Positions 27,640 through 39,143 of a stretch of 40,599 nt of DNA are shown in pieces (position 1 is the first letter of the stretch; every line of letters begins with the position of its first letter). The stretch lies in the NCBI GenBank assembly GCA_023954155.1, contig JAMLIO010000012.1, positions 1 through 40,599 of the forward strand. Reading direction: 5' to 3'. A program made the position numbers and the translations under genes. The notes below the pieces were generated by a model. It saw only the letters and a program-made list of their open reading frames with translations, was not told the origin of the DNA and made no database searches. The stretch comes from Pseudobdellovibrionaceae bacterium (lineage in GTDB: Bacteria > Bdellovibrionota > Bdellovibrionia > Bdellovibrionales > UBA1609).

Positions 27640-29021
27640 GCTACAACCCCAGAGACCTCCCTACAGAACGCCCCTCAACCCTAGATAAAAAAGGGTTCCG
27701 TGTTTATATTCATCCCGCCGAGGTCTTAGGGTATTTTCGTACTCGCAGAAATCTTGTCTATGGTTTTTTAGTTTTTATTTTTTTAGTTTTGCCTTGGACT
27801 CAATTTCAGGGCAAGCAGACCATCTTACTGGACTTAGCACAAAGAGAGTTCACGTTTTTTGGCAGCACCTTTTATGCTCATGATGCGCCACTGTTCTTTT
27901 TTCCAGTTTTTATCTTTGCCATGCTGTTAGTTTTTATAACTTCTGTCTTTGGTAGAGCCTGGTGTGGATGGGCTTGTCCTCAAACTGTATTCATTGATTT
28001 TATTTATCGAAAAATTGAAAAATGGATTGAAGGCAATCACGTAGAAAGAAAAAAATTAGATGAAGCTCCTATGAGTGTTAGCAAATTCAGCAAAAGAGCT
28101 TTGAAGTGGATTTTGTTTTTTCTGGTCTCGGCCCACATCGCCCATAGCTTCACCGCCTATTTTGTAGGGGCAAAACCCTTGCTGCTCATCACGTTGGGGA
28201 ATCCGCTTAACAATATTAACTTATTTATTTTTGTTCACTCTCTTACTCTTTTATTCCTGTTTGATTTTGGCTGGTTTAGAGAGCAGTTCTGCATCATCAT
28301 GTGCCCCTATGGACGCTTTCAATCCGTGTTAATGGACAAAGACTCTTTGACTGTCGCCTACAATGAAAAACGCGGAGAACCCAGAGGCAAAAAAGGGCCT
28401 GGAGATTGTGTCGACTGTTATAAATGCGTGATCGTCTGTCCTACGGGAATTGATATCCGTAACGGCTCGCAACTAGAATGTATTGCATGCACGGCCTGCA
28501 TTGACGCCTGTGATGATGTGATGACTCGTCTAAAGCTGCCCACTGGACTTATTGGGTACTCTTCAGAGGCTGAGCTTGAGGGCAAGAAACGCAAACTCAT
28601 CAACTGGCGCAGTGGCAGCTATTTAGCAATCATCCTAGGGCTTAGCATCGCCTTTTCTATCATTCTGTTCTTTAGACAACCTGTAGAGTTTAAGGTCTTA
28701 CGTGCCAGTAAAGCCCCGTTTTCTATCACAGAAGAGCAAGGGCAAAGACTGGTTCTTAACCATTTTAAACTGCATCTCACCAATCAAACTCAAACTCTGA
28801 TCCAGATCGACATTGTGAACCAGCATCAAGACTCTCAACTTCTGTCACCAGAATTTCCTCTGTCACTTTCTCCGAGTAAAGACAGATGGTCCCACATCTT
28901 CTTTAAGACACCTATAGATAAATTCAAAAACAAAGATAAAATCCAAACTCAAATCCAACTTAAGTATAAAGATCGCACTGAAACTTTAAAAATCAATCTT
29001 CTTGGGCCGCAACAACACTAA
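27636..29021 (+). CDS. ccoG: cbb3 oxidase accessory protein CcoG
   Basis: A 461-residue polytopic membrane ferredoxin (FixG/RdxA), thought to reduce copper for CcoI-dependent delivery to the oxidase. It contains RAWCGWACPQTVF and CIIMCPYGRFQ, and two 4Fe-4S clusters of ferredoxin type (CVDCYKCVIVCP, then CIACTACIDACD). A C-terminal membrane helix leads to an IgG-like periplasmic domain. CcoH, normally next, is not downstream; a hairpin element begins 5 nt after the stop codon. Confidence 0.94.
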   Translation: MSYNPRDLPTERPSTLDKKGFRVYIHPAEVLGYFRTRRNLVYGFLVFIFLVLPWTQFQGKQTILLDLAQREFTFFGSTFYAHDAPLFFFPVFIFAMLLVFITSVFGRAWCGWACPQTVFIDFIYRKIEKWIEGNHVERKKLDEAPMSVSKFSKRALKWILFFLVSAHIAHSFTAYFVGAKPLLLITLGNPLNNINLFIFVHSLTLLFLFDFGWFREQFCIIMCPYGRFQSVLMDKDSLTVAYNEKRGEPRGKKGPGDCVDCYKCVIVCPTGIDIRNGSQLECIACTACIDACDDVMTRLKLPTGLIGYSSEAELEGKKRKLINWRSGSYLAIILGLSIAFSIILFFRQPVEFKVLRASKAPFSITEEQGQRLVLNHFKLHLTNQTQTLIQIDIVNQHQDSQLLSPEFPLSLSPSKDRWSHIFFKTPIDKFKNKDKIQTQIQLKYKDRTETLKINLLGPQQH

Positions 29022-29026
29022 CGGCC

Positions 29027-29173
29027 GCAGAGATTTTGGGGTCTCCATTTTTATATATATACTCAAAATACTCAAACAGTGACGTTTGGCATACCTTTGC
29101 GTTCGCAAAGCTACGCCAAGCCGAACTCGCATTTCGACCATATATATAAAAATAGAGACCCCAAAATCTCTGC
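29027..29173. repeat. Covarying-arm hairpin element, copy 1
   Basis: Left arm 29027-29060 pairs with right arm 29140-29173 (34 bp, one mismatch). Between them is a 79-nt core (29061-29139) that contains an inner hairpin around GCG-TT-CGC. The core is about 85% identical to that at 30121-30199, while the arms are unrelated. It fills most of the space between the convergent ccoG and hexapeptide-transferase genes. Confidence 0.9.
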
Positions 29174-29206
29174 TCTCTTACTGTAGACTGGGAGATTCAC
29201 CATATT

Positions 29207-29962
29207 TTAAATAATTTGGCCGTCTTCGATTTTGTGTTTGGGTAAAACTACGGAGTGAGGCTTTATGGTGACTCGATTTCCGATTTTAGCTCCGCCCATA
29301 ATGCTGGCTTTGAGGCCGATGTTGGTGTGATCACCAATAGTGACAGGCTCAATGATTAAGAAACCTTTTTGACCAGAATGAGCAAAGATAGTCGCGCTTC
29401 CACCGATGGTGACATAATCCCCAAGAGTGATCATACAAGGGTCAGAGATATTTGACGTGTTAATCACGACACCTTTGCCGATTTTCATTCCCATCATTTT
29501 AAAAAATAAAACATTTAAAGGACTGGGTGTGATGAACTCTAAAAACGTAAAGCGCACCATATAAGTCAAAGCATTATGAATAAACCAAGGAATGGTAGGA
29601 AGTGAAAACCAAGGTCCACGAAAGGCTTTAACCTTAAAAGGGATTAAAAAATTCACTAATGGAACAACAAAAACTAAGCTTATGCCATAAATAAAATAAC
29701 CTGCCGCAAGGCCTATACCCATAGCCATATATTTTAAAATAGGTGCCCAATGGGCTGTAAACTCTTGCACAGTAAAAAACACATAAAGCCCAGGCCCCGC
29801 AGCCACACCCACACAAAAGACACAAATAAAAATGACAGGTAATAATAACAAACTAAAAGATAGGGTACGAAACCTACGCAAAACCTTCTCTAAAACTCCA
29901 CCCACACCTTTGCGCTTGGAATCAATAGATAAGACATCTTCTTTAATCTTTTCTGCCCCCAT
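29207..29962 (-). CDS. Membrane-associated hexapeptide-repeat acyltransferase-like protein
   Basis: A 251-residue protein. The N-terminal half has two long hydrophobic segments (about 33-60 and 72-105). The C-terminal half is a left-handed beta-helix made of hexapeptide repeats: MKIGKGVVINTSNISDP, ITLGDYVTIGGSATIFAHS, VTIGDHTNIGLKASIMGGAK, IGNRVTIKPHSVV. Such domains usually transfer acetyl or acyl groups; HSGQ could supply the catalytic His, but this is inferred. The arrangement resembles the C-terminal part of Pls/PosA-type NRPS proteins. The gene stands alone, with one hairpin element on each side. Confidence 0.75.
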   Translation of the reverse strand: MGAEKIKEDVLSIDSKRKGVGGVLEKVLRRFRTLSFSLLLLPVIFICVFCVGVAAGPGLYVFFTVQEFTAHWAPILKYMAMGIGLAAGYFIYGISLVFVVPLVNFLIPFKVKAFRGPWFSLPTIPWFIHNALTYMVRFTFLEFITPSPLNVLFFKMMGMKIGKGVVINTSNISDPCMITLGDYVTIGGSATIFAHSGQKGFLIIEPVTIGDHTNIGLKASIMGGAKIGNRVTIKPHSVVLPKHKIEDGQII

Positions 29963-30088
29963 AAATAACCTAAACAGATCTACTAGACCTGTGCCTCTCT
30001 CTACACATTATCGGTATTTAAGCGGCAAGATTCAAGACTATGTATTTATGACACATAAACAACCCCCTTCATAGGTCTAGATCGTGGA

Positions 30089-30231
30089 GGCATTTGGGTT
30101 TGGGCTTTTTAGTTATATATACTCAAAATGCTCAGACAGTGACGTTTGGCATGATTTTGCGAACGCAAAATCATGCCAAGCCGAACTCGCATTTTGACCA
30201 TATATAACTAAAAAGCCCAAACCCAAATGCC
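30089..30231. repeat. Covarying-arm hairpin element, copy 2
   Basis: Left arm 30089-30120 pairs with right arm 30200-30231 over 32 bp with no mismatch. After two mismatches the core ends add nine further pairs (TCAAAATGC with GCATTTTGA). The 79-nt core (30121-30199) has a perfect 16-bp inner stem (TTGGCATGATTTTGCG, loop AA). Same orientation as copy 1. Here the element sits between divergent genes, so it is not simply a terminator for converging transcripts. Confidence 0.9.
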
Positions 30232-37580: not shown

Positions 37581-38435
37581 ATGACTCACTACGCTCTATA
37601 TACACTTCTGACCACGGCTTCGATTGCCCTTGCTACTGCGCTTTTGGGCATTGCTGTGGCACGTACCATGGACCGTTCTCATAAATTTTTAAGCTTTTTT
37701 ATTGCCCTTGGTGCAGGACTTTTGGTGGGAGTCGCACTGACAGAGTTCCTGCCACAAGTCTTTCACTCTCACCCTACACCCTTACATGATGCTCAAATTC
37801 ATAGCAATGAGCACTCTCACGATCCTTTTGGTTTTGGAATTCTGCCCGCACTCTTGATTCTTCTTGGGGTCTTTTTTGTGATCATTTTAGAGAAAAAAGT
37901 GGCACAAACCCTAGAGTTAAGCACCCTAGGTTCTACTACGACTGAGAGCCACGGTCACGAGTTCTGCGTGCACAGTCACTCTCACACCCATGAACCCCAC
38001 ATCACTCTCAAAACAGCATGTTTATCCGTGGGGTGTGTGACAGTCTGCTCATTTTTTGATGGCTTAGAAATCTCCACAGCCTTTCACATGGGATCACAAG
38101 TGGGCTGGCTCACAAGCCTTGGATTTTTGCTTCATTCTATCTCCAACGGCGCACTTGCCGCGAGTTTGGGCCTTGCTGGTGGACTCTCTAAGTCTAGAGC
38201 CATCCAGGTGTCTATAGTCATAGGAGCTTTACTCTTCATCGGTTCTGTCGTGGGTGTCGTGGGCATCAGCCTATTTGACTTTAAATCTTATGTTTTACCC
38301 TTTAGCACAGGCGTGATGCTTTACATCTCCTTCACCCATCTGATTCCCCTAGCTCTCAAAGACAGATTGGGCTGGGTCGGCTTTATCCTTGGAACCCTCA
38401 TCACCTTTATCATTCACAGCCTGCACACCCACTAA
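37581..38435 (+). CDS. ZIP-family divalent metal transporter
   Basis: 284 residues with about eight membrane helices. ZIP features: a His-rich loop between helices (HSHPTPLHDAQIHSNEHSHD near 60-80, and HSHSHTHEPH near 131-140), FFDGLEISTAFHMGS and FLLHSISNGALAAS in the metal-coordinating helices, and the C-terminal FSTGVMLYISFTHLIP. It imports zinc or iron, or handles related metals. It converges with a Fur/Zur-type regulator gene, consistent with metal-dependent control. Confidence 0.93.
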   Translation: MTHYALYTLLTTASIALATALLGIAVARTMDRSHKFLSFFIALGAGLLVGVALTEFLPQVFHSHPTPLHDAQIHSNEHSHDPFGFGILPALLILLGVFFVIILEKKVAQTLELSTLGSTTTESHGHEFCVHSHSHTHEPHITLKTACLSVGCVTVCSFFDGLEISTAFHMGSQVGWLTSLGFLLHSISNGALAASLGLAGGLSKSRAIQVSIVIGALLFIGSVVGVVGISLFDFKSYVLPFSTGVMLYISFTHLIPLALKDRLGWVGFILGTLITFIIHSLHTH

Positions 38436-38439
38436 GCTC

Positions 38440-38698
38440 CCCCCTAGTTACACTGAATTTAGAATTGGAATTTGATTTGAGATTCCTTTAGAAATTAGGT
38501 TATACCTTCGATTTCAACCTCAGAAGTGAGCAATGCGTATCCGACATGCGTTGGCCTGTGGGGCCATAGGTCCCACAGGGTAACGCGTGCCGAAGACGCT
38601 TTGCACCCGTCTCTGCTGCGTTGGAATCGAAGGTATAACCTAATTTCTAAAGGAATCTCAAATCAAATTCCAATTCTAAATTCAGTGTAACTAGGGGG
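38440..38698. repeat. Large 259-nt palindromic element with 74-bp arms
   Basis: Arm 38440-38513 is perfectly complementary to 38625-38698 over 74 bp; after one mismatch another 4 bp pair. The 111-nt centre contains a further stem (38555-38562 with 38572-38579) and paired halves carrying the motif GYCGRANWCGCWTT (38532-38545 inverted; 38589-38602 direct), which also occurs in the cores of copies 1 and 2. The left arm starts 4 nt after the ZIP stop codon. The right arm includes the stop codon and last bases of the Fur-type gene. Confidence 0.92.
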
Positions 38699-39143
38699 TG
38701 CGGCAGGTTTTGCAGAGGTAGTTCACGCGGACGTGGGAGATTTGGTTGCGCTTGAAACCTAGGATTTTTTGTAGAGATTCTAGGTCTTGGTTTTTGATTG
38801 TGGGCTCATCGGCGTTGCCGCATTGGTCACAAAGCCAGCTCATGTGGAGATGCTTAGAGCCACATGTCGAGTGCTGGCAAAGGCTCACTTGGCCTTGGTT
38901 TAATTCATGGACCACCTTGATATCTTTAAGAACTTTGATGCTGCGGTAGACTGAGGCCTCATCGACTTGCACGTCTCGGCTGAGCAGCTCTTGGAAGATT
39001 TGTGGTACCGTCATGGCCTTGTCGGTCTCAAGTAAAAGCTCAAGCAAAGCGCGGCGCTGTTCCGTAATTCTCAGTCCTTCATCTTTCATCAGACGAAGAA
39101 GCTGTTCTAAATTTTCAGAAGTTTTAGGAGTGGCACAGTTCAT
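38691..39143 (-). CDS. Fur-family metalloregulator (Fur or Zur)
   Basis: 150 residues. The N-terminal winged helix (LRITEQRRALLELLLETDKA, then VDEASVYRSIKVLKD) binds DNA; the C-terminal dimerisation domain has the structural zinc site CDQCG and CKTC at the end. The regulatory His-rich loop reads CGSKHLHMSWLCDQC, with one fewer His than Fur. Linkage to tonB suggests iron control, while the convergent ZIP transporter suggests zinc; sequence alone does not decide. The last Pro codon and the stop codon lie inside the arm of the large palindrome. Overlaps the preceding gene by 20 nt. Confidence 0.9.
   Translation of the reverse strand: MNCATPKTSENLEQLLRLMKDEGLRITEQRRALLELLLETDKAMTVPQIFQELLSRDVQVDEASVYRSIKVLKDIKVVHELNQGQVSLCQHSTCGSKHLHMSWLCDQCGNADEPTIKNQDLESLQKILGFKRNQISHVRVNYLCKTCRTP

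Follow-up and report, generated by a model that had tools for sequence, protein, structure and literature searches.

Integron attC sites are folded single-strand recombination sites, recognised mainly by their structure, in which short conserved outer boxes surround a variable centre. Bacterial MITEs are non-coding and dispersed, and carry terminal inverted repeats that are common to their copies. The REP repeats (GTAG or CGTC repeats) found with RAYT are mostly intergenic, dispersed palindromes with complementary stem variants, and have been proposed to be miniature mobile elements (PMC3733652). Template-switch (quasipalindrome) correction produces multi-base compensatory changes, stem-extending insertions and an enrichment of G/U on the 5' side (PMC8794818).

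The locus described here belongs to a real, multi-copy, order-specific hairpin element whose kin are the small mobile palindromic repeats. Family A, to which the locus belongs, resembles REP in being small, dispersed, extragenic and palindromic. REP stems, however, are mostly 6-9 bp long with a conserved GTAG or CGTC foot, whereas the arms in the source genome are hypervariable, 28-92 nt long and without a common foot; what is conserved here is an internal loop, and no Y1 transposase was found in six carriers, including the source genome. As in MITEs, the copies are non-coding and dispersed with terminal inverted repeats, but these differ from copy to copy while the inside is conserved. The same arrangement, a conserved inside and variable outer arms, is the reverse of attC, and the single dispersed intergenic copies, with no cassette arrays seen, also speak against attC. 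The compensatory changes, stem extension and 5'-side enrichment of template-switch correction are all found here too; PMC8794818 describes that process for genes of rRNA and microRNA, where it proceeds by short steps, whereas here an entire repeat family would be shaped by it, with flanking host DNA captured as well.

The window analysed is the whole stretch of 40,599 nucleotides that makes up contig C12, from a 15-contig assembly of 2.44 Mb (genome label G000). It contains the following family A features:

29027 to 29060, + strand: left (5') arm of copy 1, 34 nt with 1 mismatch to the right arm, its first base 5 nt past the stop codon of the gene ending at 29021
29061 to 29139, + strand: conserved 79-nt core of copy 1, with loop sides near 29071-29085 (CTCAAACAGTGACGT) and 29120-29130 (GCCGAACTCGC) and the inner hairpin between them
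29140 to 29173, + strand: right arm of copy 1, complement of the left arm
30089 to 30120, + strand: left arm of copy 2, 32 nt with no mismatch to the right arm, unrelated to the arm of copy 1
30121 to 30199, + strand: conserved 79-nt core of copy 2, with loop sides near 30131-30145 and 30180-30190
30200 to 30231, + strand: right arm of copy 2, pairing with its left arm
1 to 46, + strand: right half of a further copy, cut off by the contig edge (repeat family D2 of the window)

The first-pass annotation had described 29027-29173 and 30089-30231 as hairpins with self-pairing arms that are unrelated between the two copies, enclosing cores of identical length, and each of these points was reproduced. 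The arms pair over 34 nt with one mismatch and over 32 nt with none, their distal parts are unlike (the 15 ungapped matches in 32 positions lie mostly in a core-adjacent TATATAT), and both cores are exactly 79 nt long and differ at 12 positions. The changes reported for the inner hairpin are likewise present, namely two compensatory pairs (C-G to T-A and A-T to G-C) and two mismatches of copy 1 that are paired in copy 2. Both strands fold far more strongly than dinucleotide shuffles (z -12.9 to -18.4), and in block-shuffled versions of the window perfect inverted-repeat arms did not exceed 13 nt at the spacing scanned.

Core matches across the contigs of G000 show family A to be a dispersed non-coding repeat of about 40 copies, so that the further genomic copies for which the annotation had proposed a search exist here, with many more in relatives. 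In almost all complete copies the arms pair with each other yet are unlike the arms of other copies. The arms of the 36 family A and 23 family B copies measured are mostly 28-92 nt long with 0 to few mismatches, non-Watson-Crick columns amounting to about 2.8% overall. Among the 36 core-complete family A copies the loops, which the annotation had called nearly invariant, differ by 1.3% on average, and the whole core by 9% because of the inner hairpin. Nor are the arms shared among copies, as they would be in the ordinary repeat that the annotation had set against its own reading: the local score between distal arms of family A copies is barely above that of shuffled arms (7.25 vs 6.47). This small excess means that some arms in G000 are weakly alike beyond composition, so captured flank is not the source of all arm sequence. 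Three copies (L021, L022 and L026) have an identical core over 74 alignment columns and very different arms, those of L021 and L022 being distantly similar by appearance. Arms must therefore either evolve far faster than the core or be acquired at each site. In 257 kb of G000 scanned, long palindromes (perfect arms of at least 18 nt) were confined to the cores of families A, B and C or to the inner stems of a long family B variant, which ties palindrome growth to the elements.

Contig ends frequently fall in copies, as those of C7, C8, C10 and C12 do. Some copies (L033:756-839; L003; L016) join arms from two different copies, and one chimeric copy consists of two right halves fused into a loop-less palindrome. 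Certain contig-end copies look chimeric and several of the genomes are fragmented; such copies reflect either misassembly or recombination via repeats.

A covariance model built from 36 family A copies gave matches in 26 of 141 Bdellovibrionales genomes, from 18 genera, with up to 24 copies in any genome other than the source genome. These matches keep the internal loop across the order, with YTCRRACATGCGTT on the left and GCCGAACTCG on the right; in the relatives the left side reads (Y)TCRRACATGCGTTTT and the right side AAAGCCGAACTCG, and the stems are other sequences. The carriers include one whose genome is a single contig of 2,657,893 bases. When 369 genomes of the phylum were searched, all matches fell inside Bdellovibrionales and none beyond; an exact pattern looked for in 84,980 species genomes occurred solely in Bdellovibrionales-type records, and no viral carriers of the element were found. 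Rfam had no match at gathering score and, at the E-value threshold, only chance microRNA-type matches far under the gathering scores; the open-access literature held nothing relevant on a Bdellovibrio family of this kind. This agrees with the annotation, which had not recognised a described family. In the short-arm relatives G029, G013, G091 and G036 the arms are inherited and recognisably homologous, which counts against fold-back copying. Composite hairpins in G140 (L152, L154, L156) carry the same loop module again further out, in the opposite orientation, and in G128 (L115-L124) a second conserved loop, ACCCGG/CCTGGA, lies outside a hypervariable stem.

Significant covariation in an alignment of many copies, also proposed as a test in the first pass, is overwhelming. 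Family A has 76 two-sided cells against 15.9 in shuffles, with 97% of cells paired, and the relatives have 739 against 211, with 92% paired; the model structure was used in fitting alignment A4, whose pair counts lean towards it. Stepwise compensation is expected to leave many one-sided (wobble) states. Family A has 38 two-sided changes and 1 one-sided change, and for the relatives' arm helix the cell counts are 379 two-sided and 2 one-sided. In the long variant of family B (B-long), which has a hypervariable inner stem of its own, the inner stems are on average 20% divergent between copies with pairing kept, and L060 and L062 have lost 12 and 5 nt from each of the two arms, at positions that face one another exactly. 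The G128 stems between the two conserved loops are 34-49 nt long, with left and right of equal length in all nine measurable copies; identity is 93% in the cores, 64% in the stems and 52% in shuffles. Symmetric changes of this kind suggest that one arm templates the other. The first-pass view that conserved loops with covarying stems indicate selection on structure is thus partly upheld: it survives for the loops but is no direct consequence of the stem covariation, because arm templating can restore complementarity mechanically (mechanism in PMC8794818). Covariation proves pairing, not by itself selection for RNA. Selection is argued for clearly by the near-invariant internal loops across 18 genera alone, and the form recognised would be either RNA or folded single-stranded DNA.

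Several arms contain the ends of host genes. The left arm of L050 holds the last codons of a siderophore-interacting protein (SIP), whose conserved 'GYWKR' (GYW-K-R), aligned with solved structures up to that point, ends within the arm; the right arm is a non-coding inverted copy. One arm of L051 holds the C-terminus 'EYHRLLN' of an ABC exporter and the other arm is its inverted copy, and five copies in relatives have the CCA of a tRNA gene as their start and an inverted copy of that CCA as their end. Because a coding or tRNA end has to be the ancestral state, the arm carrying it is host DNA and the opposite arm was copied from it. The tRNA-fused elements (L157, L160, L155, L163 and L100) come from four genera.

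Copies are placed mainly at gene 3' ends. With genes called by simple ORF length, the context in G000 is convergent for 15, tandem for 15 and divergent for 3, and in relatives 26, 26 and 1; arm ends in G000 lie a median of 5 nt from a facing gene 3' end and 93 nt from a facing 5' end. We read this as a palindrome that may grow until it reaches sequence protected by selection, together with a 3'-end preference or tolerance. A terminator or RNA-stability role is possible, if hypothetical. The intergenic flanks at the related species' loci examined are too diverged for orthologous empty sites to be read, and a test for target-site duplication gave no clear direct duplication outside the arms, the flanks being palindromic.

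The 5' arms of family A are 68% G+T, with more than one half in 32 of 33 copies, compared with 51% for the 3' flanks of other genes. Stems enclosed by loops are also G+T rich on the 5' side, in 10 of 10 cases in G128 and 10 of 10 in B-long, and the short-arm genomes (G029, G013, G091, G036) have no such skew. T-rich 3' flanks could account for part of the outer-arm skew. Monttinen and Loytynoja (PMC8794818) predict such a bias: in intrastrand template switching the 5' base determines the correction, and by way of wobble intermediates the 5' side then shifts from A to G and from C to T. The G+T richness of the 5' side fits this prediction.

A hairpin of a second family, B, lies near the other end of the window:

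38440 to 38518, + strand: left arm, 79 nt, 99% complementary, beginning 4 nt past the stop codon of the gene ending at 38435
38519 to 38619, + strand: conserved core of 101 nt, from a dispersed family with at least 23 copies in G000
38620 to 38698, + strand: right arm, covering the last 8 nt of the convergent gene 38691-39143

Its core runs GAGCAATGCGTATCCGAC...GCCGAAGACGCTTTGCACCC (window 38440-38698; L042-L071), and the remaining genomes of the order gave no match to it. Family C, with the unrelated core CTCCAGCAAGCGGGACGCG...GCTGGCAGAGCCCATGGATGGGCG and arms of 45-80 nt that differ from copy to copy, occupies 18 places in G000 (L050:2600-2771, L060:223-450, L247-L264) and is also found in G011, of another genus (L269-L273). 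Families A, B and C share a common plan with unrelated cores; the inner loop of B (TCCGACATGCGTT / GCCGAA) is similar to the loop of A, and that of C is dissimilar. At L184:6400-6720 in G013, two short hairpins with the core AAAAGAGATAAATGTATCAAAAGTTTTACCGAAGTTTAACAATCAAAGC and differing self-complementary arms flank a relative of family A.

Candidate mobilisers were sought in the carriers. The Y1 transposase domain PF01797 had no match in G000, G036, G013, G028, G037 or G042, and its absence from G000 rules out Y1/RAYT there as a general mobiliser; the Y1-like genes that G011 has were not consistently associated with family C. Of 14 carriers, 10 have a reverse transcriptase; G036, G042, G134 and G140 lack one, some of these genomes being incomplete. 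A copy lies near the reverse transcriptase in one of the seven loci examined (G000, about 2 kb), and the linkage to the element that would mark a retron or other retroelement was not found in the carriers. The G000 gene (C2, L244:3981-5268) is a single retron-like reverse transcriptase that follows an XRE-type regulator, in what is probably a defence island; a divergent copy of family A lies about 2 kb away. As a mobiliser, reverse transcriptase was rejected on the lone retron-like gene, its defence-type neighbourhood and the several carriers that have none. An autonomous copy with an internal ORF was also rejected, as separate searches with the loop motifs returned no gene-bearing pair.

We think it probable that these are dispersed mobile hairpins defined by their loop, whose stems are rewritten by fold-back (intrastrand template-switch) copying. 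The heritable identity would be the short asymmetric internal loop (YTCRRACATGCGTT / GCCGAACTCG) with the small inner hairpin, the loop presumably serving as the recognition site of some factor. The stems would need merely to pair, with the 5' arm templating the 3' arm during DNA synthesis; such copying would keep the arms complementary, make substitutions and indels symmetric, and extend the palindrome outward over the host flanks, giving arms of local DNA, gene ends included. Replication template switching, and not a dedicated polymerase, would do the copying, and the core would move by transposition. Both insertion and arm rewriting are what we infer from comparing copies, and paired rewriting of the arms, partly from host flanks, via fold-back template switching is the most likely course. 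A bolder proposal, which we hold tentatively and consider doubtful, is a class of mobile hairpins defined solely by an internal-loop module and represented by three or more unrelated cores (A, B and C among them), in which dedicated loop-directed fold-back copying, beyond chance errors of replication, would regenerate the stems from themselves and the host flanks at each site.

The arms might instead be made once, at insertion, if the 3' end of a single strand or cDNA snapped back on the core, copied the flank and then joined (self-priming or target-primed transposition). Unrelated arms on identical cores and the capture of flanks are in keeping with this, as are an arm mismatch of 2.8% that is close to the nearest-neighbour core distances of 0-5.6% and the one retron-like reverse transcriptase gene of G000; but symmetric changes in stems between conserved loops are left unexplained, four carriers (G036, G042, G134 and G140, some incomplete) have no reverse transcriptase, and we judge the explanation unlikely. 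It also seems unlikely that the element is a conventional structured RNA, a 3'-UTR terminator or stability element whose stems covary by ordinary selection on the transcript. Its sites at gene 3' ends and directly after tRNAs, loops kept across 18 genera and folding well beyond shuffles would suit such an RNA, whereas the near lack of one-sided intermediates, the symmetric indels, the unrelated arms on identical cores and the captured coding and CCA ends would not. Folding also prefers the minus strand for A and the plus strand for B, and with the two families in disagreement it was rejected as a guide to the functional strand.

That a REP- or MITE-type element landed in long palindromes or bidirectional terminators already present is very improbable: the T-rich left arms do look like terminator tails and the 3'-end context is suitable, yet every long palindrome in 257 kb of G000 has a core of family A, B or C, arms as long as 92 nt enter conserved coding sequence, and G000 has no Y1 transposase. 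Fold-back reads or another assembly or sequencing artefact could be suspected from the several contigs that end in copies and the few chimeric copies, one joining two right halves; against dozens of copies with distinct flanks in many independent genomes, including the single- or few-contig G053 and G100, this is hardly credible at all.

For fold-back rewriting, the element provides a natural and many-times-replicated record of arm-templated hairpin evolution, in which the origin and upkeep of perfect stems, an old question, become directly testable. It also means that extreme covariation can be mechanical, and hence is not alone proof of a selected RNA. At the tRNA-fused elements, the tRNA precursor would end in a long hairpin. 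With most of its length rewritten at every site, a repeat family of this kind stays hidden from searches by sequence.
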